This document shows positions 2,309 through 20,756 of a stretch of 52,728 nt of DNA, piece after piece. Source of the stretch: a virus. Location of the stretch: positions 1-52,728 of the IMG/VR virus record IMGVR_UViG_3300024520_000099; one strand, 5' to 3'. Every line of letters begins with the position of its first letter. Position 1 is the stretch's first letter. The notes beneath the pieces are model-generated. The model searched no databases and had not been told where the DNA came from. It worked only from the letters and a program-made list of their open reading frames with translations. The position numbers were made by a program, and so were the translations under genes.

Positions 2309-3691
2309 ATGAAGACACGATTGTATGGATACCAGAAGCAGGGCGTACGCCGCATGGAACGGTTCGACATCCGTGCCCTTCTCGCCGATGAGATGGGGCT
2401 CGGTAAGACCCTCGAGTTCCTGGCAACGTACCGACGCAACCACAAGACCTGCTCGCCGGCCGTGGTGGTGTGCCCTGCAAGCCTGAAATGGAATTGGGCC
2501 CGCGAAGCGATGATGCACATCGGGGTCAGGGCGGAGATCGCAGAGGGGAGAACACCACCACGACAGGGCCGGTTCAAGCCCGACCACAGGCTGGTGATTA
2601 TCAACTACGAGATACTCCCCTACTGGATGGACTGGCTCGAAGACCTCGACCCACAGCTCATTGGGATTGACGAGTGTCAGTACATCAAGAACCGAGACAC
2701 CCAACGAACCAAGGCCGTGAAGCACCTGTGTCGCGGGAGACCTCACATCGTTGGCATGTCGGGTACGCCGCTCACCAGTAGACCCGCGGAACTCTACCCG
2801 ATGTTGAACATCCTGATGCCGGACATGTTCAACTCGTTCATGACATACGCATGGGACTACTGCAAACCAAGACGCACGCCGTGGGGCTGGGAGTACAAAG
2901 GCGCGACGAACCTAGACGAGCTTCACGAACTGCTCACCGAGACGTGCATGATCCGCCGGCGAAAGGCTGATGTCCTGGACCAGTTGCCAGACAAGACGCG
3001 GATCGTGGTGCCATTCGAGCTCTCGAAGGACGGTCGCAAAGAATACGACTACGCTGAGAACAACTTCATGCGGTGGCTCGCCAAGTCGCAAGGCAAGGCG
3101 CGTGCTGCGTCCGCTCGCAAGGCAGCACAACTGGTGAAGATGGGATACTTGAAACGGCTCGCTGCTTCGTTGAAGTACGACCAGACAACGACATGGGTTG
3201 ATGACTTCTTTGACAACAGTGATGGCAAGCTCGTCCTGTTCGGTGTTCACAAGAAAATCATTCAACCGTTGGTCGAGAGGTACAAGAGTTCGTGCGTACT
3301 GGTTGATGGCTCGGTGAGCGGACGGAAGCGGCAGGTCGCGGTGGACAAGTTCCAAGGCAAGGACAAGATACGGTTGTTCGTTGGGAACCTGCAAGCGGCT
3401 GGCGTTGGTCTCACACTCACCGCCGCTCACAATGCCGCGTTCTGTGAACTAGGGTGGACGCCCGGCGAACACACTCAAGGCGAAGACCGCATCCACCGCA
3501 TCGGACAAGAGAATGCAGCGTCGTGCTACTACCTCGTGGCACGGAACACGATCGAAGAGGACCTGTGCCTAGTCTTGCAAGAGAAGCAAGCCGTACTCGA
3601 AGCCACTCTCGACGGGGCTGGTAGTGGTGACGACCTAGACATCTTTGACCAGCTCACCGAGCGGATCAAGCAACGGAGGGAAGCAGCATGA
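2309..3691 (+). CDS. SNF2-type superfamily 2 helicase/translocase
   Basis: 460 residues. Motif I is DEMGLGKT (27-34), motif II is DECQ (121-124), motif III is MSGTPL, and the C-terminal RecA-like lobe ends with QAAGVGLTLTAAHNAAFCEL followed by EDRIHRIGQ (motif VI with arginine finger). This is the full core of a compact SNF2/Swi2 ATPase that moves along double-stranded DNA; no extra nuclease or bromodomain is present. Phage copies are usually placed in replication, fork remodelling or clearing of DNA-bound proteins. The ATG starts one base after the preceding TGA; the stop overlaps the next start (ATGA 3688-3691). Confidence 0.93.
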   Translation: MKTRLYGYQKQGVRRMERFDIRALLADEMGLGKTLEFLATYRRNHKTCSPAVVVCPASLKWNWAREAMMHIGVRAEIAEGRTPPRQGRFKPDHRLVIINYEILPYWMDWLEDLDPQLIGIDECQYIKNRDTQRTKAVKHLCRGRPHIVGMSGTPLTSRPAELYPMLNILMPDMFNSFMTYAWDYCKPRRTPWGWEYKGATNLDELHELLTETCMIRRRKADVLDQLPDKTRIVVPFELSKDGRKEYDYAENNFMRWLAKSQGKARAASARKAAQLVKMGYLKRLAASLKYDQTTTWVDDFFDNSDGKLVLFGVHKKIIQPLVERYKSSCVLVDGSVSGRKRQVAVDKFQGKDKIRLFVGNLQAAGVGLTLTAAHNAAFCELGWTPGEHTQGEDRIHRIGQENAASCYYLVARNTIEEDLCLVLQEKQAVLEATLDGAGSGDDLDIFDQLTERIKQRREAA

Positions 3692-5976: not shown

Positions 5977-7357
5977 GAAACGTGACGGAGCACTAGCCCG
6001 TCGCATACTGACCGGCATGATCGTAGACAAGGTCGTGCTGGGTCACGTCGCGGCAGTGTGGGACAAGGAACTGTTCAAGTCCAAGTGGTGCAACCTCGTA
6101 GCCGGCTGGTGCGTGTCGTACTTTGAGAGGTACAACAAGCCACCCGGATCAGCCATCGAGAGCCGGTTCGAGAGCTGGGCCAGCAAGGGGCGTGACAAGG
6201 ACACGGTGAAACTGGTCGAGAAGTTCCTGGCTACGCTGAGCGAGGAGTACGAACACCACGCTGCCGAGATCAACGCTGCCTATCTGGTTGACCAAGCAGC
6301 AGAGCATTTCAACGAGGTCCGTGCCAAGCGGCTCGTTGATGAGATAACCGACGACCTCGAAACAGGGGAAGGCGTCAAGGCACTCGAACGCATTTCCAAG
6401 TTCGGTCACGTGGAAGTGGGTACGACCCACGGCGTCGACGTACTCAACGACCAAGGCGCGAGCCAAGAGGCCTTCGAGCAACAGAACGAAACGCTCATCA
6501 AGTACCCGCAAGCTCTCCAGCACTTCTTCGCCGACGCGTTCCAACGTGATTCGTTCGTGGCGTTCATGGGTCCCGAGAAGCGAGGCAAGACGTGGTGGTT
6601 GATCGACGTTGCATGGCGAGCGATGAAGCAGCGTCGCAAGGTCGCGTTCTTTTCAGTGGGTGACATGAGCCAGCACCAGATGATGCGACGCTTCCATGCG
6701 AGGGCTGCACGACGACCTCTGCGAGCGAAGACAGTGAAGGTGCCAACTGGTATCGAACACGACCCCGGCACACCGATTGCACTGGTCGATCGAGAAGACA
6801 AGGTATTCGACAAGCCGATGTCGTGGCGCATGGGATACAAGGCACTGCAACACCACGCGAAGAGCACCAAGACCAAGTCGACGTTGCTTCGCATGGCCTG
6901 CTACCCGAACAGTTCGATAAGTGTGACCGGTCTCGCCAGTGTGTTGACCGTCTGGGAGAACGCCGGGTGGATACCAGACATCATCGTTATCGACTACGCG
7001 GACATCCTCGCGAACCCGCCTGGCTTCAACGAGAGTCGCGACGCTACGAACGCCACGTGGAAGCACCTGCGACGGTTGTCTCAAGAGCGACACTGTTGCG
7101 TTGTCACCGCGACCCAAGCAGACGCCGCATCGTACCGAGCAGAGACCATCGACGCATCGAACTTCAGCGAGGACAAACGGAAGCTTGCCCACGTCACTGG
7201 CATGGTAGGCATCAACAGTACGCCCGACGAGAAAGAGGTCGGGTTGCAACGGTTGAATTGGGTGGTGCTCCGCGAGAGCGAGTTCAACGTCTCCAAGTGT
7301 GTTCACGTCGCTGGTTGCTTCGATATTGGCAACCCAGCAGTCAAATCCACGTTCTAG
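5966..7357 (+). CDS. DnaB-like replicative helicase (RecA fold)
   Basis: 463 residues. The N-terminal helical half (about 1-185) fits a DnaB-type collar. Walker A is GPEKRGKT (202-209); Walker B is the IIVIDYAD segment; a later VVTATQAD motif resembles the DnaB H3/Q motif. It should unwind DNA ahead of the fork as a hexamer. ATG 5966 is preferred over TTG 5963 and follows AAGGAGAGCTTG; it overlaps the previous gene by 11 bases. The gene ends just before a hairpin and candidate promoter, so it probably closes the first operon. Confidence 0.85.
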   Translation: MRIEKRDGALARRILTGMIVDKVVLGHVAAVWDKELFKSKWCNLVAGWCVSYFERYNKPPGSAIESRFESWASKGRDKDTVKLVEKFLATLSEEYEHHAAEINAAYLVDQAAEHFNEVRAKRLVDEITDDLETGEGVKALERISKFGHVEVGTTHGVDVLNDQGASQEAFEQQNETLIKYPQALQHFFADAFQRDSFVAFMGPEKRGKTWWLIDVAWRAMKQRRKVAFFSVGDMSQHQMMRRFHARAARRPLRAKTVKVPTGIEHDPGTPIALVDREDKVFDKPMSWRMGYKALQHHAKSTKTKSTLLRMACYPNSSISVTGLASVLTVWENAGWIPDIIVIDYADILANPPGFNESRDATNATWKHLRRLSQERHCCVVTATQADAASYRAETIDASNFSEDKRKLAHVTGMVGINSTPDEKEVGLQRLNWVVLRESEFNVSKCVHVAGCFDIGNPAVKSTF

Positions 7358-7380
7358 CCAAAAAGAATTTGCAGGTCTTT

Positions 7381-7401
7381 GACCCTGGATTTTCCGGGGT
7401 C
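7381..7401 (+). terminator. Hairpin without T-tract after the helicase gene
   Basis: GACCCTGG (7381-7388), loop ATTTT, CCGGGGTC (7394-7401): eight pairs with one G-T wobble. No run of T follows, so it may mark a weak or Rho-aided end of transcription or protect the 3' end of the message. Confidence 0.4.
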
Positions 7402-7447
7402 TCGTCGTCCCGGCCGTGGCAATTTGAATAAAATGGTTCAAGTGGTG

Positions 7448-7476
7448 TTGACCCCACAACCGATTCAAGCCATACT
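7448..7476 (+). promoter_or_regulatory. Candidate sigma-70-like promoter
   Basis: TTGACC (7448-7453), a 17-base spacer and CATACT (7471-7476) lie after the hairpin and 50 bases before ATG 7526. The -35 matches the consensus in five of six bases, the -10 in four. Position at an operon boundary supports it, but the sequence alone is not decisive. Confidence 0.4.
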
Positions 7477-7525
7477 CTGGATGTTGAGACAAACGAAACA
7501 CACACAACCCAACGGAGACCAAGCC

Positions 7526-8251
7526 ATGTTGAAACTTACCGCGACCACGACAGACACCACGATCGAAGCCCACAGCCGAGACGAACTACGCGACGCGATG
7601 CTCCAGTTCCTCAGCGAGAACAAGAGCGAGATCAACAAGATGAACAAAGCCCAACGGGTTGAGCGATGCAAGTTGATCCGCGATGACCTCAAGCGACAAG
7701 CCGGCGACCGCGAAGACCACTTGGAAACCCAACGCCAAGCCAAACTGGAAACCGAACGAAAGAACCCTGTGTACTGTGCCGCGATCAACGTGTTGCACGA
7801 AGGCGTTGAAAAGCGATACGAAGAACTGGTTGGCATGGTCAAAGAGTGGCAAGAGAAGGTAGCCAACAGCGACCCGTTGAGCGTAGTTTGGAACTGTGAG
7901 AGCGGGATCAAGAACATGATCTTTGCCAGCGAGTACGCCGGCAAAATTCAACACCTCGTACGGTACTTGGCCAAACAGTGTGACGAGCGAACCGACACCG
8001 TCCAACAGATCAAGAAGCACATCGCTGACAACGCCAACGAGCTTGCCAAGCAGTGCATGAACGACGAAGACTACAACCACAACAGCACCTGTGAAATGGA
8101 CAGCGTCAAGAGCCGTGAAAAGTTCCGAGCCCTACAACACGCAGCCCGCCTGTTGGGCCAAGTGGTTGACGCCTTCGACCGCGACACCGCCTGCGACAAC
8201 CCAGCCGACGCGATGCACGGCAAGTACATCCGAGACAGCCGCTGCTGGTAG
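7526..8251 (+). CDS. Coiled-coil-rich protein of unknown function
   Basis: 241 residues from ATG 7526, chosen because CGGAGACCAAGCC precedes it; the frame is open further upstream to 7379 without a good ribosome-binding site. The protein is highly charged with long helices, for example the stretch around KSEINKMNKAQRVERCKLIR and a Glu/Arg/Lys-rich region after it, and several cysteines in the C-terminal half. No family is recognised. It is the first gene of the short unit that ends at the strong terminator at 9808-9838. Confidence 0.7.
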   Translation: MLKLTATTTDTTIEAHSRDELRDAMLQFLSENKSEINKMNKAQRVERCKLIRDDLKRQAGDREDHLETQRQAKLETERKNPVYCAAINVLHEGVEKRYEELVGMVKEWQEKVANSDPLSVVWNCESGIKNMIFASEYAGKIQHLVRYLAKQCDERTDTVQQIKKHIADNANELAKQCMNDEDYNHNSTCEMDSVKSREKFRALQHAARLLGQVVDAFDRDTACDNPADAMHGKYIRDSRCW

Positions 8252-8297
8252 ACCCGACCACAACCACCACCACCCACTCACAACGGAGACCAAGACG

Positions 8298-8597
8298 ATG
8301 ACCACCACCAGAACCAACGAACAACTGACCGCCGTACTGGACACCGCCCGCGAGTTGTACGCGGACCCACAGTTCACCCAAGACACGCACCAGCAGATGG
8401 GCTTCGAGCACGCGATCATGGGTCGCCCCGAACCCCGCAACTGGCAAGCCTACCTGTGGGCGGCAGCTTACAGCCACGCTCGCTACGAGCACAGCGACGA
8501 AGGCGGGCGAGCGATCGCCCAAGCGGAAGCCGACTCCGCATGGTTCGGGCACGACGGCTCGACCCCACAGGGCTACCGATTTGGATACGCCAACTGA
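8298..8597 (+). CDS. Small protein of unknown function
   Basis: 99 residues from ATG 8298 after CGGAGACCAAGACG and a CA-rich leader (8255-8285). It is rich in aromatic residues (NWQAYLWAAAYSHARYEH) with an Ala/Glu helix near the end and no cysteines. The frame is open upstream into the preceding gene, so the start rests on the ribosome-binding site. No function can be suggested. Confidence 0.6.
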   Translation: MTTTRTNEQLTAVLDTARELYADPQFTQDTHQQMGFEHAIMGRPEPRNWQAYLWAAAYSHARYEHSDEGGRAIAQAEADSAWFGHDGSTPQGYRFGYAN

Positions 8598-8603
8598 CCA
8601 CCC

Positions 8604-8620
8604 GTTCCGACAGTACCACT
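8604..8620 (+). repeat. Intergenic motif copy 2 (GTTCCGACAGTACCACT)
   Basis: Located after the stop at 8597 and 45 bases before ATG 8665. It is nearly identical to copy 3 at 9076-9093, including the following ACTGAA. Confidence 0.5.
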
Positions 8621-8664
8621 GAACCTGAACCACCACTACCACCACAACCACAAGGACCGAGACC

Positions 8665-9765
8665 ATGAAGAACCTGTTCCCCAAGATCACCACCAAGAGC
8701 GGCGGGTACACGACACGAGTTCGATTCAACGATGAGGCTCGCGGCGAACGCTACTTTGACACCGAGTACGGCGTACACGCCTGGCAACAGCCTGGCTCGT
8801 TCGTGCTCACCTGTGTGATCACACACGACGGTCACCACACTGAGTGCACGGCGGGGTCAACCATTGGGAAGGACCTGCGGGTCGGAGACCAGATCACCCT
8901 GATGGTCCAGCGATGGTCCATGAGAGGGAGAGCGAAGCAGATGGGCGCCACCATCTACGTGACCGGCTTGGAGACTGTGGTGAACGCTGACGGGTTCGTG
9001 TTGATTCGATACTCATACGAGCCCCCTCGACAAACAGAAAAAGAACCAGTAAAGTCCAGCCACGACGCCGGCACTGGTTCCGACAGTACCACTGAAGACG
9101 ACGTACCTGACTGCTCCACAACGGAGCAACCACAACCCGCCACCACGAGTGGCACAACCACTGGAGACCACGAGATGAACGTCACACGAAGCGCACTGAT
9201 CGCTCTGTTCGAAGCCCTCGAATTCAAGACCGCGAGCAAGTGGAACAAGGCACGGTTGCTCGGCAAGATCAACGGGCTCCCGGACGTGGTGGACGAAGAC
9301 ACTGACGCCGGCGACAACCAGGAGCTGCTCGACAACCTGCTCGACGCGGTTGAGAACGAGACCGAGATCACCATCGAAGACGACGTGGCCAAGAAGGCCC
9401 CTGCGAAGGGCAAGGAGAAGGCCGCTGCGAAGGACAAGGCGAAGCCCGCTGCCAAGAAGGCGCCCGCGAAGCCGAGCGTTGAGCGGGACAAGTTCGGGTC
9501 GAAGATCGGAACGCAGTGCAACCTGATCAACGAGGTGATGACCGGCAAGCCACAGGAGACGAAGGCGATCGCCGAAGCGAGCGGCATGACGGTCTCGCGG
9601 GTCAAGGCCCACATGACCTACCTCGTGGGCAAGAGCTTCGTGGAGAAGACCGACAAGGGCTACAAGCTCGACAAGGACGCCCCCAAGAAGCCGGCCGCGA
9701 AGGCGAAGCCCAAGGCCAAGCCCGCTGCCAAGAAGAAGGAAGAGACCGCGGACGCTGAAGAGTAG
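8665..9765 (+). CDS. Two-part protein: unknown domain joined to Lys/Ala-rich DNA-binding protein
   Basis: 366 residues in one open frame. Residues 1-125 are a beta-rich unknown domain; 126-170 are low-complexity Ser/Thr/Pro and correspond to DNA that looks like an intergenic leader (motif copy 3, hairpins, CA-rich run). Met171 (ATG 9175) is preceded by ACTGGAGACCACGAG, a good ribosome-binding site, so a 196-residue product may also be made. That second half has a KING-type N-terminal domain, a histone-H1-like Lys/Ala linker (about 241-270), the winged-helix module paralogous to the gene at 147, and a basic Lys/Ala tail. A nucleoid-like or regulatory DNA-binding role is inferred. Confidence 0.75.
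   Translation: MKNLFPKITTKSGGYTTRVRFNDEARGERYFDTEYGVHAWQQPGSFVLTCVITHDGHHTECTAGSTIGKDLRVGDQITLMVQRWSMRGRAKQMGATIYVTGLETVVNADGFVLIRYSYEPPRQTEKEPVKSSHDAGTGSDSTTEDDVPDCSTTEQPQPATTSGTTTGDHEMNVTRSALIALFEALEFKTASKWNKARLLGKINGLPDVVDEDTDAGDNQELLDNLLDAVENETEITIEDDVAKKAPAKGKEKAAAKDKAKPAAKKAPAKPSVERDKFGSKIGTQCNLINEVMTGKPQETKAIAEASGMTVSRVKAHMTYLVGKSFVEKTDKGYKLDKDAPKKPAAKAKPKAKPAAKKKEETADAEE
9076..9093 (+). repeat. Motif copy 3, inside an open frame
   Basis: GGTTCCGACAGTACCACT lies within the open frame 8665-9765, followed by small hairpins (TGCTCC/GGAGCA at about 9112-9128; GCCAC/GTGGC) and a ribosome-binding site for ATG 9175. It looks like an intergenic leader that has become translated. Confidence 0.5.
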
Positions 9766-9807
9766 ACCGTGACACTGTTGACCAAGCCGACCCGCCCCGG
9801 TCGCAAG

Positions 9808-9838
9808 CGCCTCGGACGGAAACGTTCGGGGCGTTTTT
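9808..9838 (+). terminator. Strong intrinsic terminator
   Basis: CGCCTCGGACG (9808-9818), GAAA tetraloop, CGTTCGGGGCG (9823-9833), then TTTTT (9834-9838). The stem has 11 pairs with two G-T wobbles. It separates the DNA-binding protein gene from the 7-deazaguanine cassette and is the best rho-independent terminator in the window. Confidence 0.88.
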
Positions 9839-9866
9839 CAATTCACCCCTCACCACTGGAGAACCC

Positions 9867-10658
9867 ATGAAGGTATTCGCAATCGAATTGACAAACTGGT
9901 GCAACGCCAAGTGTGGGTTCTGCCCGTACACAAGCCCCGACCACAACCGTCCCAAGGGATGGATGACGGAAGATACCCTACGGCTACTCATCAACAAGAT
10001 GGAGCCACCACGCGAGATCAACTTGAGCGGCTTGGGGGAACCCACACTGCACCGCGAGCTGGTTCGGTTCGTCTCCATCTTACGCGCCAACGGTGTCGCG
10101 GTCCAAATGAACACCAACGGCCAGCAACTGGACCAAGACCTCTACGACCAGTTGTGGGAAGCAGGGTTGAACAAGATCATCCTCACTAGCGACTACTTCC
10201 CGTGGGACAAGGGGAAGCTGAAGGTGAAGGAGGGGCTACCAGTGACGTTCTTTACCATCTCCCGCGAGCCGGACCACCCAGAACTCGGCCAAACTCAAAA
10301 GCCCCTAGACGACTGGGCAGGACAGGTAGGCAGCGCCCCGCGAGACAAGGTCCGCTGCAGCTTCCTGCACGACGACTTTGTTCAAGTGTGCTGGGACGGA
10401 ACGGTGCAACGGTGCTGCTGTGACTTCAATGCGAACCACGCTCTCGGCAACATGCACGACGAGAGCTTTCACGACAATTACCAAGCCGGCGTTTACGTCG
10501 ATCGAGAGATCCCGTTGTGTGGGGGATGCGCCGGCTACGTGTTCGAGTCTGGTCTAGTCGCTGGTGACTACGCTGGAGCCGGCGACACTGCCCCCGACGC
10601 ATTCACAGACCTCGTACAACTGGAGAAACCAGATGCCGCAGATCACCCGGAAACTTGA
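9867..10658 (+). CDS. Radical SAM enzyme with extra C-terminal cysteines
   Basis: 263 residues. CNAKCGFC (Cys12, Cys16, Cys19) is the CX3CX2C motif that binds the 4Fe-4S cluster used to cleave S-adenosylmethionine; NLSGLGEPTLHREL supplies the GGE-like SAM contact. The C-terminal part holds CSFLHDDFVQVC, then RCCCDFN and CGGC, enough cysteines for a SPASM/twitch-type auxiliary cluster. It is first in the 7-deazaguanine cassette and its end overlaps queD by 26 bases, so it probably acts on the same pathway. It is distinct from QueE, encoded two genes later. Substrate unknown. Confidence 0.82.
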   Translation: MKVFAIELTNWCNAKCGFCPYTSPDHNRPKGWMTEDTLRLLINKMEPPREINLSGLGEPTLHRELVRFVSILRANGVAVQMNTNGQQLDQDLYDQLWEAGLNKIILTSDYFPWDKGKLKVKEGLPVTFFTISREPDHPELGQTQKPLDDWAGQVGSAPRDKVRCSFLHDDFVQVCWDGTVQRCCCDFNANHALGNMHDESFHDNYQAGVYVDREIPLCGGCAGYVFESGLVAGDYAGAGDTAPDAFTDLVQLEKPDAADHPET

Positions 10659-11154
10659 GTTCGATGCTGGCCACCGCGTCCTGGGCCACGAATCGAAATG
10701 TGCTCACCTGCACGGTCACAGGTATGTCGTGGAGATCACCGTGTCCAGCTTCGGGCTCGATGAGATCTCGCGGGTCGTTGACTTTGGCGTAGTGAAGGGG
10801 CTGGTCGGCCAGTGGCTCGATGAGAACTGGGACCACAACATGCTGCTTCACATGGACGACCCATTGCTCGAAGCGAACGTCCCGGTCAGGCTCGACGGAG
10901 ACACCGACAAGCTCATGTCGTGGAAGGAAGCCCTCGACCTTGTCCAGGCTGGTACGCACGTGAACTTCTCCAGCGAACCCATCTTCGGTGGCAAGGTTCC
11001 GTACATTGTGCCGAACCGCGAGAACCCAACGGCCGAGGTCATGTCGCGGTTGCTGTACGAGAAGGCTCGCGAGCTACTCGACAACAATGGGCTTCAGGTA
11101 CACGCCGTTCGCCTCTACGAGACACCGAACTGCTGGGCGGACCATGAAGGGTGA
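10633..11154 (+). CDS. queD: 6-carboxy-tetrahydropterin synthase
   Basis: 173 residues, T-fold family. It converts 7,8-dihydroneopterin triphosphate into 6-carboxy-5,6,7,8-tetrahydropterin, the second step to 7-deazaguanine bases. Zinc ligands His14, His27 and His29 (HLHGH) and the catalytic Cys23 are present, with VDFGVVKGLV and ENWDHNMLL (Asp-His) following the QueD pattern; a longer loop before NPTAEV is an insertion. ATG 10633 follows CTGGAGAAACCAG and lies inside the radical SAM gene, so the two are translationally coupled. Confidence 0.9.
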   Translation: MPQITRKLEFDAGHRVLGHESKCAHLHGHRYVVEITVSSFGLDEISRVVDFGVVKGLVGQWLDENWDHNMLLHMDDPLLEANVPVRLDGDTDKLMSWKEALDLVQAGTHVNFSSEPIFGGKVPYIVPNRENPTAEVMSRLLYEKARELLDNNGLQVHAVRLYETPNCWADHEG

Positions 11155-11155
11155 A

Positions 11156-11171
11156 CCGTCCCGACAATGCT
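11156..11171 (+). repeat. Motif copy 4 (CCGTCCCGACAATGCT)
   Basis: Immediately after the queD stop codon and upstream of a long hairpin; 94 bases before ATG 11266 of queE. Confidence 0.45.
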
Positions 11172-11175
11172 GTGG

Positions 11176-11227
11176 CGGGTGAAGGGGACACCTGGCTGGG
11201 CCACAGTCACCTCCGCCCCTTCACCCG
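11176..11227 (+). other. Long nested hairpin in the queD-queE gap
   Basis: CGGGTGAAGGGG (11176-11187) pairs perfectly with CCCCTTCACCCG (11216-11227). The 28-base loop holds a smaller hairpin, TGGC/GCCA at 11193-11203. No T-tract follows. It could end or pause transcription, stabilise the message or act as a regulatory RNA. It does not match the preQ1-I riboswitch pattern as I know it. Confidence 0.55.
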
Positions 11228-11265
11228 TCGTTCATTTCACCACTACCCACGGAAGGACCGAGACC

Positions 11266-11958
11266 ATGACGACACAGCTCAACACACAGACACCCGAGAA
11301 ACCAACGCAAGACCCTGACTCGATTGAAGTCCACCACATCTGGGACACCATTCAAGGTGAAGGGCCCCACGCCGGACGGCCGGCTGTGTTCGTTCGACTC
11401 ACTGGTTGCAACATCCAGTGCCCTGCTTGCGATACCGAGTACACTAGCGAACGTCGTCTGCTGTCTCCGGATGGAGTGGTAGAAGTGGTGAGGGGGATCC
11501 GCCCGTCAGGATTGGTTGTCCTGACGGGTGGAGAACCCATGCGCCAGAACATCAGCAAACTGGTCGAGACGCTACTCGACGCACGGTACGAAGTGCAGAT
11601 CGAAACCAACGGCACCATCTTTCGAGCCCTTCCGTTTGACAACATGAACTTGGTCATCGTGTGCTCACCCAAGACAGCGAACGTGAACGCCAAGTTCGCG
11701 ATTCATGTTGACGCTTGGAAGTACGTGCTCGATGCCTGTCACGTGGACCCGAAGGACGGTCTACCCACTACCACAATGAACCACGATGGTCCTGTGTCGC
11801 GGCCGCTCCGTGGTGGTGGTGCGGAGATCTACGTGCAGCCCCTCGACGAGGGTCACCCGGGACCCAACGGTAGAAACCTGGCGGCAGCCGTGAAGAGCGT
11901 GAGAACCTACGGCTACCGGCTGTGCCTACAGACACACAAGATCATAGGGCTTGAATAG
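11266..11958 (+). CDS. queE: 7-carboxy-7-deazaguanine synthase (radical SAM)
   Basis: 230 residues from ATG 11266 after GGAAGGACCGAGACC. QueE contracts 6-carboxy-tetrahydropterin to 7-carboxy-7-deazaguanine (CDG), the base precursor. The signature DTIQGEGPHAGRPAVFVRLT leads into GCNIQCPACD, in which Cys48, Cys52 and Cys55 form CX3CX2C. VVLTGGEPM is the SAM-binding GGE motif and QIETNGT the next conserved strand. Length is normal for the family. Hairpins lie on both sides of the gene (11176-11227 and 11958-12051), suggesting its own expression control. Confidence 0.93.
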   Translation: MTTQLNTQTPEKPTQDPDSIEVHHIWDTIQGEGPHAGRPAVFVRLTGCNIQCPACDTEYTSERRLLSPDGVVEVVRGIRPSGLVVLTGGEPMRQNISKLVETLLDARYEVQIETNGTIFRALPFDNMNLVIVCSPKTANVNAKFAIHVDAWKYVLDACHVDPKDGLPTTTMNHDGPVSRPLRGGGAEIYVQPLDEGHPGPNGRNLAAAVKSVRTYGYRLCLQTHKIIGLE

Positions 11959-12051
11959 GGGCACCACACGACGCACAGGGCGTCGTTCGCCCCAGAAGAC
12001 GTAATACCAGACCCCGCCCCTGTGGAGACGCTTAGAACGCCCCACAGGGGC
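11958..12051 (+). other. Tandem hairpins after queE
   Basis: The first hairpin has outer arms GGGGC (11958-11962) and GCCCC (11989-11993) and inner arms ACGACGC (11968-11974) and GCGTCGT (11980-11986). The second pairs GCCCCTGTGG (12016-12025) with CCACAGGGGC (12042-12051), perfect over 10 bp with a 16-base loop. Neither is followed by a T-run beyond TTACCTGTTT. They may attenuate transcription or protect RNA ends upstream of the FolE fusion gene. Confidence 0.55.
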
Positions 12052-12076
12052 TTACCTGTTTAGAGGAGAAAGACCC

Positions 12077-13009
12077 TTGACAGTGAACGAGAAACCTGCT
12101 TGCGAGAAGTACGAACTGAGCTGGGAAGACATTCACATGCGGGCGGCACTCCTGGCCAAGCATCTCCGCGACACGTTCCCGACGCGGGTCGAGATGAACG
12201 CCTACCCTGTGCCACGCGGCGGCATCTACGCGGCACAAGCCCTGCTCACAATGATGGCCGGTAGCACGCGGCCCCTCTCGTTGAACATTGTCGAGGAAGT
12301 GAACGACGCTGACTTCATCATCGACGACATCGTAGACAGTGGAGCAACCCGCAAGCACTACGAACCATTCGCGTTGCCGTTCTTCGCACTCGTCGACAAG
12401 CAGATGGAGAAAGAGATCACGCAGAAGTGGGTGGTCATGCCGTGGGAACGAATGACCAATGAGAAGGGACCCGAGGAGAACATCACACGACTGTTGCAGT
12501 TCATTGGTGAGAAGGTCGGTCGCGAAGGTCTCAAGGAAACCCCGCAGCGTGTCATCAAGTCGTACGCACAGATCTTCGCCGGCTACAAACAAGACCCCGC
12601 GGACGTGATGAAGGTATTCGAAGACGGAGCCTGTGACGAGATGGTCCTGCTCCGCGACATCGAATTCTATTCAGTGTGTGAGCATCACATGCAACCGTTC
12701 TTCGGTCGAGCCCACATCGCGTACATCCCCAACGACAAGGTCCTGGGCGTGAGCAAGCTCGCTCGGGTGCTCGACATCTACGCTCGCCGGCTCCAGATAC
12801 AAGAGCGGTTGACCAGCCAAGTGACGACGGCACTGATGGAACATCTCAAGCCCAAAGGCGCGGCGTGTGTACTCGAAGCGAAGCACTTCTGCATGGTCTG
12901 TCGCGGGGTCGAGAAACAGAACAGTCGCATGGTCACCAGTTCCCTTCAGGGAGCATTCAAAGAAGACGCAGCCACTCGGGCTGAGTTCTACTCGATGATC
13001 CGCGACTAG
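12077..13009 (+). CDS. folE: Phosphoribosyltransferase - GTP cyclohydrolase I fusion
   Basis: 310 residues. Residues 1-125 resemble a type I phosphoribosyltransferase: DADFIIDDIVDSGATRKHY (78-95) is the PRPP-binding loop and PVPRGGIYAA the PPi-contact segment. Residues 126-310 are GTP cyclohydrolase I, which turns GTP into dihydroneopterin triphosphate, the first step of deazaguanine synthesis: SVCEHHMQPF gives Cys201, His203 and His204, and HFCMVCRG gives the second zinc cysteine. TTG 12077 fits AGAGGAGAAAGACCC best; GTG 12083 is an alternative. The fusion may link base salvage or transfer to pathway entry; that is inference. Confidence 0.87.
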   Translation: MTVNEKPACEKYELSWEDIHMRAALLAKHLRDTFPTRVEMNAYPVPRGGIYAAQALLTMMAGSTRPLSLNIVEEVNDADFIIDDIVDSGATRKHYEPFALPFFALVDKQMEKEITQKWVVMPWERMTNEKGPEENITRLLQFIGEKVGREGLKETPQRVIKSYAQIFAGYKQDPADVMKVFEDGACDEMVLLRDIEFYSVCEHHMQPFFGRAHIAYIPNDKVLGVSKLARVLDIYARRLQIQERLTSQVTTALMEHLKPKGAACVLEAKHFCMVCRGVEKQNSRMVTSSLQGAFKEDAATRAEFYSMIRD

Positions 13010-13024
13010 TCCCGACAGTACCAC
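13008..13024 (+). repeat. Motif copy 5 (AGTCCCGACAGTACCAC)
   Basis: Overlaps the last base pair of the folE-fusion stop codon and ends 17 bases before ATG 13042, leaving only the ribosome-binding site between them. Confidence 0.5.
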
Positions 13025-13041
13025 CACAGGAGAAACCCATT

Positions 13042-13470
13042 ATGCAAACCAAAGCACACGTCTACGTTCGGACGACCTTCGAAGGCTACCATCGTTGGGC
13101 TGATGCCCCCGAAGCCGTGGCGTTCCTACGTCACTGGCACCGTCACTTGTTTCACGTTCAACTGGATGTCCACGTAGAGCACAACGACCGCGACGTTGAG
13201 TTCTTTATCTTGCAGCGAGAGTTGAACCGTTTCATCGACGATACGTTTCAACCACAGGGCCCCATGCGGTTCGAGTTCAGCTGCGAGATGATCGCGGAGC
13301 AAATCATCGCACACTTCCACGAGAAGCTTGAATACAAAGTTCATTCGTGTGAGGTCAGTGAGGACGGTGAAAATGGTGCAGTCGTTACGGTGGCCGGTCT
13401 CGCGGAGCAGATCCAAGAGACACTTGATGCTCGCGAGAGCTGGGAACGTGAACAACGGGAGTTTGAATGA
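13042..13470 (+). CDS. QueD-like T-fold paralog
   Basis: 142 residues. The layout parallels QueD: WHRHLFHVQLDVHV corresponds to the HGH-containing strand, DRDVEFFILQRELNRFIDD to the VDF...LK helix, SCEMIAEQII to PT.E..A, and the last strand ends in Glu/Val-rich sequence. The QueD catalytic Cys and the Asp-His after the long helix are not apparent. It could bind a pterin or deazaguanine and catalyse a different step, or be structural. Location between the FolE fusion and a glycosyltransferase ties it to the cassette. ATG follows CACAGGAGAAACCCATT. Confidence 0.6.
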   Translation: MQTKAHVYVRTTFEGYHRWADAPEAVAFLRHWHRHLFHVQLDVHVEHNDRDVEFFILQRELNRFIDDTFQPQGPMRFEFSCEMIAEQIIAHFHEKLEYKVHSCEVSEDGENGAVVTVAGLAEQIQETLDARESWEREQREFE

Positions 13471-13471
13471 C

Positions 13472-14644
13472 ATGGCGAAATCACAGAACAGAGCGATCTT
13501 CTATTGTCCGCTTGAAGCGTACAAAGAACGATACACGATGCAGCTCTCTGCTCCGGAGGTGGGCTGGCTCGAACGCAACTGGAGACAGGCGGGCATCACA
13601 TACGTCCGGGTTGAGGGTGACCGCCCACACGAACCGCAGAACATCACAACGGGTGTTGCCCTAGATGCCATCGGGCGATCGAAGATGTGCTTTGCTCAGG
13701 TGTCTAAGTTGCTCGACATGATGCCGGGCATGGGTGAAGACGACGTCATCTACTTCGATGACTTCTGGCACCCCGGCATTGAGGCGATCGCCTACGCTGC
13801 ACACATGATGAACCGTCCGCTGCCCAAGATGTACGCGAACCTCTGGGCACAGTCAGTGGACGAGTTCGATTTCACGTATGGGATGCGTGACTGGATGCGG
13901 TACTTCGAGAAGGGCTTTGGAACTCTGTTGAGTGGCATCTTTGTAGCGTGCCCTTCGCTCAAGGACCTCGTGGTCCATGGCGGTATCGCCCATCACGAGA
14001 AGGTCCATGCTGTGGGTCACCCGTTCTCCAGCGAAGAAGTCAAGTCGCGGATGCCTGAGCTTCCCGCTGACCGCGAAGACAAGGTCGTGTATTGCAGCCG
14101 GTGGGACCGCGAGAAGAACCCCGACTTCTTCCTGCGTGTGGTTGACACGGTACTAGCCGAACGACCCCACACTCAGTTCGTCGTGTGCTCCAGTCATGAG
14201 AAGCTCCGCTCGAACCACAGCCCTCTGCTCGGACTGCTCACCAAAGCCCGCAAGAAGCATGGTGACAAGCTCGTACTCATGGAAGGGTTGACGAAGGAAG
14301 AATACTACGCTGAACTCGCATCGGCGAAGGTCCACATCAATACCGCGGACCAAGACTGGATCAGCTTCGTACTGCTCGAAGCGAGCTGTGCGGGGGCGTA
14401 CCCTGTCTACCCATACTTCAGGTCGTTCCCAGAAGTGTTCGAGTACAAGCCCGACTTCATGTACCAACGGTTGCACGTCCCAAGTGCAGCTGCCGTGGTG
14501 AAGGGCGTGCTCGATGCGACCGACCTGTGGACCGAAGAGGCGATCCAATCCCGAGCGTGGGTACACGAGCGTTTCGACAACTCATGGGAACGTATGGCAA
14601 CAATCATGGGCGTGTATCAGGGAGACCAAAGTGGCCCGTTCTAA
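13472..14644 (+). CDS. GT-B-type glycosyltransferase
   Basis: 390 residues from ATG 13472; the frame is open upstream to 13328 inside the previous gene. The C-terminal half has the GT4-like pattern: VVYCSRWDREKNPDFFLRVV (start of the donor-binding lobe), an LVLMEGLTKEEYYAELASA segment and INTADQDWISFVLLEASCAG, which corresponds to the E-x7-E nucleotide-sugar motif. It should move a sugar from a nucleotide-sugar to an acceptor. Because it overlaps dpdA by 14 bases, DNA or a deazaguanine intermediate is the suspected acceptor, but that is inference. Confidence 0.75.
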   Translation: MAKSQNRAIFYCPLEAYKERYTMQLSAPEVGWLERNWRQAGITYVRVEGDRPHEPQNITTGVALDAIGRSKMCFAQVSKLLDMMPGMGEDDVIYFDDFWHPGIEAIAYAAHMMNRPLPKMYANLWAQSVDEFDFTYGMRDWMRYFEKGFGTLLSGIFVACPSLKDLVVHGGIAHHEKVHAVGHPFSSEEVKSRMPELPADREDKVVYCSRWDREKNPDFFLRVVDTVLAERPHTQFVVCSSHEKLRSNHSPLLGLLTKARKKHGDKLVLMEGLTKEEYYAELASAKVHINTADQDWISFVLLEASCAGAYPVYPYFRSFPEVFEYKPDFMYQRLHVPSAAAVVKGVLDATDLWTEEAIQSRAWVHERFDNSWERMATIMGVYQGDQSGPF

Positions 14645-15617
14645 ACCAGTAAAGAAACAACGACGCAACCCGAAGCGGAAGCGTCGAGACGAAGGTGAAC
14701 GACCACCCGAGACCATCGGGTCGTTCTTCTTGGACAGTGGGGCTCACTCCCTGTTCAACATCTACGCTCACAACGTAGGTCAGCACGAGCGGTACGCCTT
14801 CTACGAGACCGATGACTTCTGGCAGTACGTCGACGACTACTGTGAGTTCGTCAAGGCGAACATCCACGCGATCGACTACTACGCCAACGTGGATGTGATC
14901 CACAACCCGAAGCTCAGTTGGAAGGTCCTCAAGTACATCGAGAAGGACCACGGTCTCAACCCTGTGCCAGTCGTTCACATGGGCACGGAAGTGAAGTGGC
15001 TCCGCCGACACTTGGACGCGGGCTATGACTACATCGGGCTGGGTGGTGTCGCATTGGAAGGCACGCGGACCAGCTACCTGCATTGGGCGGATCAGATGTT
15101 CGAGTGCATCTGCGATACCCCGGACCGAACACCGAAGGTCAAGGTTCATGGGTTCGCGATGACAGCCTATGCGAGTCTTGTCCGGTATCCGTGGTACTCC
15201 GTTGACTCGACATCGTGGGCTAAGGCCGGCGGGTTCGGGATGGTCTACTTCCCCAAGAAGATCAACGGTGAGTTCGTGTTCGTACCACCAGACCCGAACG
15301 ACTGGTCCCGGGTGAAGGCATACGAGCCATACAACCTGAGCTGCTCCGCCAACGCCCCCGCCGCTAAGAAGAAGGGGCAGTCGTACTTGTCGGTCTCCAG
15401 TGGAGCACAGAAGGTCCTCGCTGAGTGGCTCGAAAGTATAGACGTCCCCATCGGGACAGTTGACGAAGATTGTGAGATGCTTGAGTGGGGAGTGGTGAGC
15501 CATCACGCTGCCCGTAAGATTGCGAACCTCCGCTTCTTCGAACACCTCACCGCCGCACTACCTGATTGGCCGTGGCGATTCAAAGCAACTTCAGTGAAAG
15601 GGTTCGGGTTGATCTAA
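14631..15617 (+). CDS. dpdA: DpdA-like DNA 7-deazaguanine transglycosylase
   Basis: 328 residues from GTG 14631, which follows AGGGAGACCAAA inside the glycosyltransferase gene. DpdA is related to tRNA-guanine transglycosylase and replaces guanine in DNA with a 7-deazaguanine base. Visible motifs: FLDSGAHS (Asp35, the position of the general base loop), NVDVI (86-90), YIGLGGVA (134-141), VKVHGFAMT and YSVDSTSW (Asp192, candidate nucleophile). The tRNA-type CxCxxC zinc site is absent, as in phage DpdA. A basic N-terminal tail (RRNPKRKRR) may bind DNA. It is the key enzyme of the modification cassette. Confidence 0.85.
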   Translation: MARSKPVKKQRRNPKRKRRDEGERPPETIGSFFLDSGAHSLFNIYAHNVGQHERYAFYETDDFWQYVDDYCEFVKANIHAIDYYANVDVIHNPKLSWKVLKYIEKDHGLNPVPVVHMGTEVKWLRRHLDAGYDYIGLGGVALEGTRTSYLHWADQMFECICDTPDRTPKVKVHGFAMTAYASLVRYPWYSVDSTSWAKAGGFGMVYFPKKINGEFVFVPPDPNDWSRVKAYEPYNLSCSANAPAAKKKGQSYLSVSSGAQKVLAEWLESIDVPIGTVDEDCEMLEWGVVSHHAARKIANLRFFEHLTAALPDWPWRFKATSVKGFGLI

Positions 15618-15823
15618 TGCCACAGCCAAACAAGATGATCCTGTTCTACTCGGGCTCGACCTCGGGCGAGTCACTACCCGAACGGGTTCTGGAGCACAAC
15701 CAGCCTGGCGTCATGTTGACGTTCTGGGAGATGCACGAGAAACGAGGTGACACAATCCGTCGCTTCGAACGCCATGCCGCCAAACGAAAAGGAGTTGAAT
15801 CTGATGACGCAAGTCAACCGTGA
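15617..15823 (+). CDS. Small DpdA-linked protein
   Basis: 68 residues starting at TAATG with the dpdA stop. The sequence has MILFYSGSTSGESLPE and a GVMLTFWEMHEKRGDTIRRF segment that looks well structured, then a charged tail. No family is recognised. Tight coupling to dpdA and termination inside the sliding-clamp leader suggest a helper of base exchange, perhaps linking DpdA to replication; this is a guess from position. Confidence 0.55.
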   Translation: MPQPNKMILFYSGSTSGESLPERVLEHNQPGVMLTFWEMHEKRGDTIRRFERHAAKRKGVESDDASQP

Positions 15824-16820
15824 GGAACTACTCAATCAGCTTGAGAGCATCAAGCCGGGACTGTCACCCCGCGAGATCATTGAGCAATCGTCTTGCTTCG
15901 TGTTCGAAGACGGGAAGGTGATGACGTACAACGACGAGATCGCCTGCACGCAAGACAGTTGCCTGAAGATCACTGGAGCCGTGCAAGCGGAACCTCTGAT
16001 CGCAGTGCTCGCCAAGCTCCCCAACGACCAAGTCGAGATCGTCGAGGAAGGCAGCGAACTGAAGATCAAAGCCGGTAGGCGGGAGTCGGGTATTCGCCGA
16101 GAGGCGGAGGTCCTGTTGCCCATCGAGTCGGTGGAGAAACCCAAGAAGTGGCACAAGCTGCCTGAGGACTTCGGCGATGCGGTCTACATCGTGATGCAGT
16201 GTGCAGGACGAGACGAGTCGCAGTTCGTTATCACCTGTGTCCACATCACCAAGAACCACATCGAGGCGTGCGACAACTTCCAGCTCAGTCGCTACCCGAT
16301 GGAACTACCCATCCGCGGGAACTGCCTTGTGCGAGCCGACAGTCTCAAGCACGTCTGCGACCTCGACATGACCGAGTTCGCCGAGACCCAGACATGGGTT
16401 CACTTCCGCAACCCCACAGGGCTCGTTCTATCGTGTCGCAAAAGCATGGACGACTACCCAGACATTTCTCCGCTGCTCGACGTTGAGGGGGCGGCTACGA
16501 CGCTGCCAAAGGGACTGGCCGAGGCTACCCAGATGGCACAGATCTTCTCCAGCGAGAACGCGGACAACGACAGCGTCCTAATCAACCTGTCACCCAAGAA
16601 GGGCGGCATGCTCCGCGTCGCAGGGGAAGGCGCTTCCGGGTGGTATCGCGAGACCAAGAAGCTCAAGTACGTCGGCGAACCAATGAAGTTCCGCATCGCC
16701 CCGAAGTTGCTGATTGAGTTGACTAAGCGACACAACGAATGCGAGATCAGCAACGACCGCCTACTGGTGAACGGTGGCAAGTTCCGTTACGTCACATGCC
16801 TTGGAGCAGCCGATGAATAA
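15804..16820 (+). CDS. DNA polymerase sliding clamp (DnaN-like)
   Basis: 338 residues from ATG 15804 after AAAAGGAGTTGAATCTG. The protein fits a beta-clamp in size (bacterial DnaN is about 366) and in pattern: repeated strand-rich segments such as CFVFEDGKVMTYNDE, ITCVHITKNHIEACDNFQLS and LLVNGGKFRYVT. Sequence is diverged and individual clamp residues cannot be listed with certainty. A clamp is expected because a DnaX/RFC-like loader is encoded at 21336 and a polymerase at 18637. Confidence 0.6.
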   Translation: MTQVNREELLNQLESIKPGLSPREIIEQSSCFVFEDGKVMTYNDEIACTQDSCLKITGAVQAEPLIAVLAKLPNDQVEIVEEGSELKIKAGRRESGIRREAEVLLPIESVEKPKKWHKLPEDFGDAVYIVMQCAGRDESQFVITCVHITKNHIEACDNFQLSRYPMELPIRGNCLVRADSLKHVCDLDMTEFAETQTWVHFRNPTGLVLSCRKSMDDYPDISPLLDVEGAATTLPKGLAEATQMAQIFSSENADNDSVLINLSPKKGGMLRVAGEGASGWYRETKKLKYVGEPMKFRIAPKLLIELTKRHNECEISNDRLLVNGGKFRYVTCLGAADE

Positions 16821-18647: not shown

Positions 18648-20004
18648 AGCAGCCACGCCCGAAGCGTACCGACTGTTCCACGATGGCGTCATAGCGTTCG
18701 CCGGCGTTGAGGAGAACGGTATTCGCATTGACACTGATTACCTTGACAATGAGATCACCCGCACCAAACGCCGCATCAAGAAGGGCGAAGATCATCTCAA
18801 GAAGTCAGATGTCTGGAAGGCGTGGAAGAAACGATTCGGTGGCAAAGCGAAGCTCGGTTCGAAGCCACAACTGGCGACCATGTTCTTTGATGAGATGGGC
18901 TATGTCCGTAGCGAAACTGGCAAACAACAAGATGAGGCAGCTTTCTCCAACGTCGACCACCCGTTCATCAAGAACTACTTCAAAGTCGAGAAGCTGAAGA
19001 AGGTCGTTGGGACATACCTCACTGGCATACGTCGTGAGGTGGTAGGTGACCGAGCCCACGTCTTTTTCAACCTGCACACTGTGAAGACCTACCGCGGAAG
19101 TGCCGACCGGTTCTCGTACCAGAACCTGCCAATACGAAACCCTGAAATGGGTGGCATCGTACGCAAGGCGTTCATCCCAAGCGACGGTCACGTCCTGGTT
19201 GAGATCGACTACTCGGGCCTCGAGTTCACCATGGCTGGGGCAATCACCAAGTGCCCACAGGTCAACCGATACATCGTGGAAGGCGGAGACCCGCACCGCG
19301 ACATGGCGGCACTCGTGTTCAAGTGCGAGCAAGACGAAGTCTCCAAGCAGATGAGGTACTGTGGGAAGAACCAGTTTGTCTTCCCCCTGCTGTACGGTTC
19401 TTACTACCGTTCTGTCGCTCCGGTACTTTGGTCGTCCATGGCTACGATGGACCTGAAGATAGGCGATGCGGGGCTGCTCGATCGCTTCGCGGGGATGGGC
19501 ATAGATGAGCTTGGAGACTTGGACCCACGCACCACCCATCCCGGGACATTCGAGCACCACATGAAGGAGTGCGAGAAGGAGTACACACAGAAACGGTTCA
19601 AGCAGTGTTTCGCGAATCAACGGAAGGCGTACGAGACCTATCGCAAGACCGGCCGTGTCGAGTTCGTCACAGGGTTCCAGGCTAGTGGGATGATGAGTCG
19701 TAACGACGTCTACAACTGGCGCATTCAAGGGCCGGCGTTTCACTGCCTACTGTGGTCAATGATCAAGCTTCACAACTGGCTGGTGAAGTCCAAGTTCAAG
19801 TCAATGATCGTGGGCCAGATCCACGACAGTATCATCGCAGACGTTCACGTAGACGAACTCGAAGACTACCTGTCTTATGCCAGGTATGTCATGACGCAAG
19901 AGATCCGCGAGCATTGGAAATGGCTATGCGTGCCCCTCGATGTTGAAGCGGAAGTCACACCCGAAGGCGGCACGTGGAATGACAAGAAGGTCCACCAGAT
20001 ATGA
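18637..20004 (+). CDS. Family A DNA polymerase, polymerase domain
   Basis: 455 residues from ATG 18637 (TGGAGGTTTTGACCACT before it); ATG 18616 is an alternative. Motif A is EIDYSGLEF (189-197), motif B spans the Arg240-Lys244-YG254 region of MRYCGKNQFVFPLLYGSYY, and motif C is GQIHDS (393-398). The exonuclease is missing and lies two genes upstream, so the polymerase is split. Thumb-to-finger spacing is normal. It should replicate the phage genome with the clamp, helicase and exonuclease subunits. Confidence 0.92.
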   Translation: MRIEAATPEAYRLFHDGVIAFAGVEENGIRIDTDYLDNEITRTKRRIKKGEDHLKKSDVWKAWKKRFGGKAKLGSKPQLATMFFDEMGYVRSETGKQQDEAAFSNVDHPFIKNYFKVEKLKKVVGTYLTGIRREVVGDRAHVFFNLHTVKTYRGSADRFSYQNLPIRNPEMGGIVRKAFIPSDGHVLVEIDYSGLEFTMAGAITKCPQVNRYIVEGGDPHRDMAALVFKCEQDEVSKQMRYCGKNQFVFPLLYGSYYRSVAPVLWSSMATMDLKIGDAGLLDRFAGMGIDELGDLDPRTTHPGTFEHHMKECEKEYTQKRFKQCFANQRKAYETYRKTGRVEFVTGFQASGMMSRNDVYNWRIQGPAFHCLLWSMIKLHNWLVKSKFKSMIVGQIHDSIIADVHVDELEDYLSYARYVMTQEIREHWKWLCVPLDVEAEVTPEGGTWNDKKVHQI

Positions 20005-20756
20005 GACTTGACACAGTACAAACTGAACGCGGCACGTTCGTAGTCCCCACTGAACGCTCAACACCATCGTTCAACACGAAGGTGAGGGCGGGTGGCTTTG
20101 AGTTGGAGAAACTGGACTGGTTCATGCACTACGCGACCAAGCACTACGGACCACGGGCCGGTCCGTTCATCGACGTAGGAGCCCACATCGGCACCACGGC
20201 AATTCCAGTAGCCATGATGGGGCACGAGGTCATAGCCATTGAGCCTGACCCACTATTGGTCGCGTGTCTCGCTGCGGGTGCATGGCTGTCGGGTGTCGAG
20301 CACAAGGTCCACATCAACCAAGCGGCAGCCCATAGCGATACCGAGAACGTCACCCTCCAACTGAACCCGCACCACGCCGGTGACAACCGTATCAAGGGAC
20401 CAGCGAACCCCGACGCAGAGAAGTGGGAATCGATTGAGGTCAGGACCGTTGTGTTGAACGACTGCATTGATCTACCTGGCTGGATGTGGATCGACGCACA
20501 GGGCCACGAAGCCCACGTCCTCGACGGTGGCAGTGTGTACGTCGGACGGGTGCCACTGTTCATGGAGTTCTTCCCACCACACATGAGCGAACCCTCGCAT
20601 CTGTTTGAAACACTGCAAGCCGCGTACCGCCACTTCATCGAATACGGAACTGACCTCGTACGACCAACGTCCCACTTGCCCACGCTCTACGCTGAGATGG
20701 TAGCGAAGGTGAAGAAGACCCCGAACATTCACACTGACCTGTTCTTCATAGGGTGA
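20001..20756 (+). CDS. FkbM-type SAM-dependent methyltransferase
   Basis: 251 residues. VGAHIGTTAIPVAMMGHEVI is motif I of the Rossmann methyltransferase fold, IEPDPLLVACLAAGAW follows as motif II, and the FkbM-like acidic helix WIDAQGHEAHVLDGG comes later. FkbM enzymes methylate small hydroxyl groups, often on sugars, but phage copies have unknown targets. ATG overlaps the polymerase stop by four bases, placing it in the replication operon and making a DNA- or nucleotide-related target possible. Confidence 0.75.
   Translation: MRLDTVQTERGTFVVPTERSTPSFNTKVRAGGFELEKLDWFMHYATKHYGPRAGPFIDVGAHIGTTAIPVAMMGHEVIAIEPDPLLVACLAAGAWLSGVEHKVHINQAAAHSDTENVTLQLNPHHAGDNRIKGPANPDAEKWESIEVRTVVLNDCIDLPGWMWIDAQGHEAHVLDGGSVYVGRVPLFMEFFPPHMSEPSHLFETLQAAYRHFIEYGTDLVRPTSHLPTLYAEMVAKVKKTPNIHTDLFFIG

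Follow-up and report, generated by a model that had tools for sequence, protein, structure and literature searches.

A viral deazaguanine DNA modification cassette in which a T-fold protein and a glycosyltransferase appear to take the place of QueC

The enzymes FolE, QueD and QueE together make 7-carboxy-7-deazaguanine (CDG) from GTP, and the deazaguanine bases described in DNA carry small groups or none at C7 and derive mostly from preQ0. In the dG+ and dPreQ0 cassettes of E. coli phages 9g, CAjan and BRET (Hutinet 2019, PMC6884629), these three enzymes are accompanied by QueC, which BRET carries as a fusion with an amidotransferase, and by the transglycosylase DpdA, without a T-fold paralog of QueD, a glycosyltransferase (GT) or an extra radical S-adenosylmethionine enzyme (rSAM). 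The opposite arrangement is found in the viral record IMGVR_UViG_3300024520_000099, which was analysed over its whole length of 52,728 bases (the window). Its cassette at nt 9867–15823 resembles theirs in encoding FolE, QueD, QueE and a DpdA that is homologous, and the window shares with BRET the same FolE-DpdA-clamp-polymerase block, but T-fold, GT and rSAM are present and QueC is absent.

Two other types of cassette are closer in gene content. Those of the Cellulophaga phage phiST type resemble the window in having FolE, QueD, QueE and a T-fold protein of the same family, with the same invariant residues, and in lacking QueC; they differ in having a short DpdA of another family and never a GT. 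The DNA of phiST reportedly contains 7-deazaguanine (dDG/dCDG), with a decarboxylase, DpdL, predicted for its synthesis and a transglycosylase termed DpdA3. Phage PA5oct has been noted as having a deazaguanine system (PMC7824862). As in the gene set of the window, PA5oct-type loci have T-fold, GT, purine phosphoribosyltransferase and QueE genes adjoining a DpdA that is similar to tRNA-guanine transglycosylase (TGT), but this DpdA belongs to a different, longer family, an epimerase-family gene is present, and no SPASM rSAM was found beside the cassette. In the accessible part of PMC7824862, the GT of PA5oct is not mentioned in connection with the base.

The association of these genes was assessed in 80 viral loci that were retrieved with the DpdA profile alone and only then scanned for the other families, so that they were not selected by the answer. 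T-fold and GT occurred together in 37 of the 80 loci and neither was found alone (0/80), while QueC was present in 19 loci, none of which carried T-fold or GT. An rSAM (either BtrN-like, as in the window, or of a second family, u25) was found in 16 loci, always with T-fold and GT (16/16). The 53 complete neighbourhoods comprised 30 with T-fold and GT, 13 with QueC and 10 with neither. Within this DpdA family, then, the linkage of T-fold and GT is obligate, QueC is excluded and rSAM is confined to loci having both. On the DpdA tree, the T-fold plus GT state requires six changes, at least four of them on well supported (starred) branches, and the two genes have therefore been gained or lost together, as a unit, several times. 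Nor is the linkage merely one inherited arrangement, because gene order differs between loci, with the T-fold gene lying before the GT gene, after it, or after DpdA. The pairing of T-fold and GT and their exclusion of QueC point to an alternative branch from CDG that would replace QueC and preQ0; judged by gene content, this branch is distinct and widespread.

Three further families resembling transglycosylases served as independent queries, and two of them showed the same linkage. Marine T4-like DpdA (u0) was accompanied by T-fold and GT, without QueC, in 28 of 28 complete neighbourhoods, and the same held for PA5oct-like DpdA (u12) in 40 of 42. Around the phiST-like short DpdA (u19), T-fold was present in 37 of 46 complete neighbourhoods and GT in none; over all phiST-type loci GT was likewise absent (0/80). 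Of the loci that GT queries retrieved, 15/15 and 26/27 also encoded the T-fold; in the one that did not, the contig is truncated at the GT gene. Over all sets, an rSAM match lay near the cassette in 22 of 162 loci with T-fold and GT versus 1 of 152 others, several of the PA5oct-like matches being weak. The initial annotation had regarded the cassette as the best candidate for a new system in the window; it belongs, however, to a class that is widespread beyond the window and has cultured members, among them PA5oct, Paride, Callisto, Xanthomonas phage X1, BUCT-ZZ01, Acidovorax phage ACP17 and Phosso.

The cassette consists of eight close-packed, consecutive open reading frames (ORFs), all on the plus strand and several preceded by GGAGAA-like ribosome sites. 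All eight had been listed in the initial annotation, and their assigned identities stand, but their order differs from the one given there: rSAM comes first, the FolE fusion fourth, and GT precedes DpdA. The genes, followed by those for the sliding clamp and DNA polymerase, are:

nt 9867–10658, plus strand: rSAM, BtrN-like, with a SPASM/twitch-like C-terminus and CxxxCxxC at residues 12–19 (PF04055, 8e-13)
nt 10633–11154, plus strand: QueD, 6-carboxytetrahydropterin synthase (PF01242, 1.3e-31; PHROG_2389, 7e-35)
nt 11266–11958, plus strand: QueE, 7-carboxy-7-deazaguanine synthase, a radical SAM enzyme (PHROG_2076, 1.5e-45)
nt 12077–13009, plus strand: purine (xanthine/guanine) phosphoribosyltransferase (PRT) fused to FolE, GTP cyclohydrolase I (PF01227, 7e-73)
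nt 13042–13470, plus strand: QueD-fold (T-fold) paralog, PHROG_17812 (PHROG match, alignment and model)
nt 13472–14644, plus strand: GT4-type retaining glycosyltransferase (PF13692, profile, model and linkage to T-fold)
nt 14631–15617, plus strand: DpdA-type DNA guanine transglycosylase, GTG start (PHROG_887, 1.5e-36)
nt 15617–15823, plus strand: small DpdA-partner ORF of 68 residues (recurrence beside DpdA; fusion in a relative)
nt 15804–16820, plus strand: sliding clamp, a context gene (PHROG_947, 7e-29)

Many distant viral contigs carry this set of genes, which speaks against a chance assembly. The cassette is real, looks complete and falls within a known kind of system, deazaguanine DNA modification of the DpdA type. 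Searches of Pfam and PHROG assigned the four core genes (QueD, QueE, FolE and DpdA) without doubt, and the three enzymes needed for CDG synthesis are all present; in alignment, the QueD of the window retains its Cys, HxH, Asp-His and Glu residues. The QueC motif SGGxDS does not occur in any frame of the window, and the cassette thus lacks the QueC of the dPreQ0, dG+ and dPreQ1 subtypes. Synthesis of queuosine for tRNA was considered as a role and rejected, as the transglycosylase matches DpdA families and not tRNA TGT.

The T-fold paralog was modelled with high confidence (predicted local distance difference test score (pLDDT) 91.7) as a QueD fold; among solved structures, E. coli QueD and archaeal relatives come closest to it. 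Alignment with QueD, in which the roles of the residues compared are established, shows that the histidines H17, H33 and H35, which bind zinc, and E107, the glutamate that binds the substrate, are kept, while the catalytic cysteine and the Asp-His dyad have been lost. Given the latter, the protein is unlikely to be a second QueD; the sequence is most naturally read as that of an enzyme with an altered reaction, on a pterin or purine related to the substrate of QueD. We propose that it acts on CDG and that it may correspond to the predicted decarboxylase DpdL. The initial annotation had called it a QueD-like T-fold paralog, which is borne out by the fold; it is not a spare QueD, however, but with GT the defining partner that appears to replace QueC. 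There were 345 viral relatives, whereas a single-protein search of 84,980 cellular genomes, with a reach limited to close relatives, found none and so pointed to neither a precursor in cells nor a natural-product cluster.

The GT matched PF13692 at 3e-5, under the curated cut-off, and its identity was settled by profile and structure work. The model (pLDDT 93.5) is a GT-B structure with the GT4 fold, and Foldseek returned BshA, MshA and PimA, which are retaining GT4 enzymes using sugar nucleotides, with E-values of about 1e-13. The donor-site residues R210, K215 and E303 are invariant. In relatives, the gene is adjoined by nucleotide-sugar genes, encoding a protein of the epimerase/GDP-mannose dehydratase family and a mannose-phosphate-isomerase cupin. 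We propose that the GT glycosylates the deazaguanine. Two Xanthomonas phages, X1 (L101, nt 10744–11526) and PhiXhv-12 (L452, nt 7144–8858), also encode proteins with a PHxDDE motif or a deacetylase annotation next to this GT or one related to it; that of X1 had no match in Pfam. The arrangement resembles the pairing of MshA with MshB and, by analogy, hints at an amino sugar. PhiXhv-12 itself was set aside as a different system, since its distant GT lies beside aminosugar genes in a neighbourhood without a T-fold or DpdA match.

BtrN is an aminocyclitol dehydrogenase that oxidises an alcohol of its substrate. The rSAM profile gave BtrN as the best solved match (1.4e-18), followed at some distance by cytosylglucuronate decarboxylase (1e-8). 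The protein has the CxxxCxxC motif and the C-terminal auxiliary cluster cysteines of BtrN-like enzymes, and C12, C16, C19 and the C-terminal cysteine are invariant among relatives; no relative of the gene was found in the phage collection at 1e-5. It was present in 14 of the 30 complete loci with T-fold and GT, and the nearest DpdA relatives of the window are without it. The enzyme is an optional add-on, for which tailoring of the sugar or base is proposed; as such enzymes appear where GT is, it probably oxidises or reshapes the sugar. The second, unrelated rSAM family, u25 (about 440 residues; L084, nt 9149–10468, and also L139, L158, L163 and L167), was found only in cassettes with T-fold and GT, where it seemingly fills the same role.

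In the window DpdA, the catalytic residues Asp35 and Asp192 are invariant in the alignment. Homologues of the protein serve as DpdA in phages of the dG+/preQ0 type, BRET and VspDsh_1 among them, and its profile matched no solved structure by sequence. The small ORF that follows was rightly described in the initial annotation as DpdA-linked: one is carried by 26 of the 80 DpdA loci, downstream of DpdA in QueC- and GT-type phages alike, and in L087 it is fused to the DpdA C-terminus. It has the motif FYSG..PE..L..MLTF and no family match. It might have split off from DpdA, but a profile comparison of it with a DpdA N-terminus, as a detached N-terminal strand, was not significant. The annotation of Edwardsiella phage ZHS places a nucleoside 2-deoxyribosyltransferase in the vicinity of DpdA (L418, nt 7721–8131).

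The PRT domain (nt 12077–12460) is of the guanine/xanthine type. It is fused to FolE in the window and adjoins FolE in many relatives. Its best solved profile match is a purine phosphoribosyltransferase (2e-25), E. coli xanthine-guanine phosphoribosyltransferase matches at about 5e-18, and profile comparison places it closest to guanine/xanthine enzymes. The phosphoribosyl pyrophosphate loop IIDDIVDSGAT is intact and a C-terminal W-x-x-x-P-W-E signature is present. The domain may recycle the guanine released by DpdA towards GTP, the substrate of FolE; among the DpdA-retrieved loci it is also present in those with QueC, as expected of a general guanine-recycling role.

Elsewhere in the window, recognisable tailed-phage genes include those for terminase, portal, DnaB-like helicase, DNA polymerase and a UvsX-like recombinase. 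For the first 24 kb, a nucleotide search of the collection of cultured phages found nothing closely related. A methyltransferase-like protein (PHROG_8156) is encoded at nt 20001–20756, after the DNA polymerase gene, and a 460-residue protein (nt 2309–3691) matches the middle part of PHROG_62, a family of very long phage helicases, as though it had been excised from a larger protein.

A pathway that would account for these genes begins with the synthesis of CDG from GTP by FolE, QueD and QueE. The T-fold protein, and not QueC, would then process CDG, most likely by decarboxylation to 7-deazaguanine, which DpdA would exchange for guanine in phage DNA, the released guanine being recycled by the PRT fused to FolE. 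With a nucleotide sugar as donor, the GT would glycosylate the deazaguanine, the BtrN-like rSAM would then oxidise or otherwise tailor the attached sugar, and the resulting bulky base would shield the DNA against restriction enzymes. We consider this pathway as a whole, with its T-fold branch, insertion by DpdA, glycosylation and tailoring by rSAM, to be reasonably likely, and the product, as far as gene content can tell, to be most likely a glycosylated 7-deazaguanine. The suggestion in the initial annotation that the extra enzymes signal an elaborated or glycosylated base is well supported by the linkage, with rSAM being optional.

Several points weigh against this pathway. A 7-deazaguanine without a C7 group offers no obvious sugar acceptor, so that the sugar would have to sit on C7 itself or on the 2-amino group. 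In huimycin and dapiramicin, the sugar is on the 2-amino group of the deazapurine (PMC7439116); attachment at C7 is also possible. The window itself has no nucleotide-sugar genes next to GT, which could act on the free base instead of on DNA, and the inserted base could be CDG if the T-fold protein is not a decarboxylase. The locus counts include related contigs within families and do not represent independent events.

Three other explanations have to be weighed. The T-fold protein might activate or hold CDG, with GT glycosylating the carboxylate or the ring directly and DpdA inserting a glycosylated CDG. This would agree with the behaviour of T-fold and GT as one unit in GT-type loci and with the retention of the zinc site and substrate-binding glutamate without the chemistry of QueD. 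Glycosylation of a deazaguanine base also has a precedent in the huimycin cluster of Kutzneria, where enzymes like FolE, QueD and QueE form a 7-deazapurine that a GT is proposed to glycosylate (PMC7439116). Huimycin is, however, a small molecule that is synthesised through preQ0 and secreted, and neither DpdA nor DNA is involved. The T-fold protein is found in phages without GT, however, and so has an activity of its own, which makes a glycosylated CDG an unlikely product.

Those same phiST-type phages, with a T-fold protein having the same invariant residues, could suggest instead that the DNA contains plain 7-deazaguanine (dDG) or carboxy-deazaguanine, and that the GT, GT4 enzymes being versatile, modifies something else, for example host surface glycans or a protein. 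This is quite improbable: GT hardly ever occurs without T-fold in complete loci, is tied to three separate DpdA families and is missing from every phiST-type locus, and a GT for surface glycans would neither track the type of DpdA nor exclude QueC. Host QueC is common, and with it ordinary preQ0-type DNA could be made while GT, T-fold and rSAM were passengers, for which the 10 of 53 complete neighbourhoods lacking both QueC and the T-fold/GT pair might be cited. The strict pairing and the strict absence of phage QueC beside it leave hardly any room for this, as passengers would not stay together over such distances.

Taken more widely, we think it somewhat probable that the cassette represents a widespread, undescribed class of hypermodification, in which a T-fold protein and a GT4 enzyme turn CDG into a C- or N-glycosylated 7-deazaguanine in DNA that is sometimes tailored by rSAM. 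The literature searched yielded known derivatives and the note on PA5oct, but no glycosylated deazaguanine in DNA, and as far as could be checked there the base would be novel. The linkage yields a specific and cheap prediction for the cultured phages, and the enzymes are candidates for sugar-labelling guanine positions in DNA. In phage T4, hydroxymethylcytosine is likewise a modified base that is then glycosylated to block restriction, but the base is cytosine, is built at the nucleotide level and is made by unrelated enzymes. If the proposed pathway is correct, it would make sense of the numerous phage cassettes in which FolE, QueD and QueE occur without QueC, and a glycosylated deazaguanine would combine purine replacement with glycosylation, two ways of protecting DNA, in a single base.

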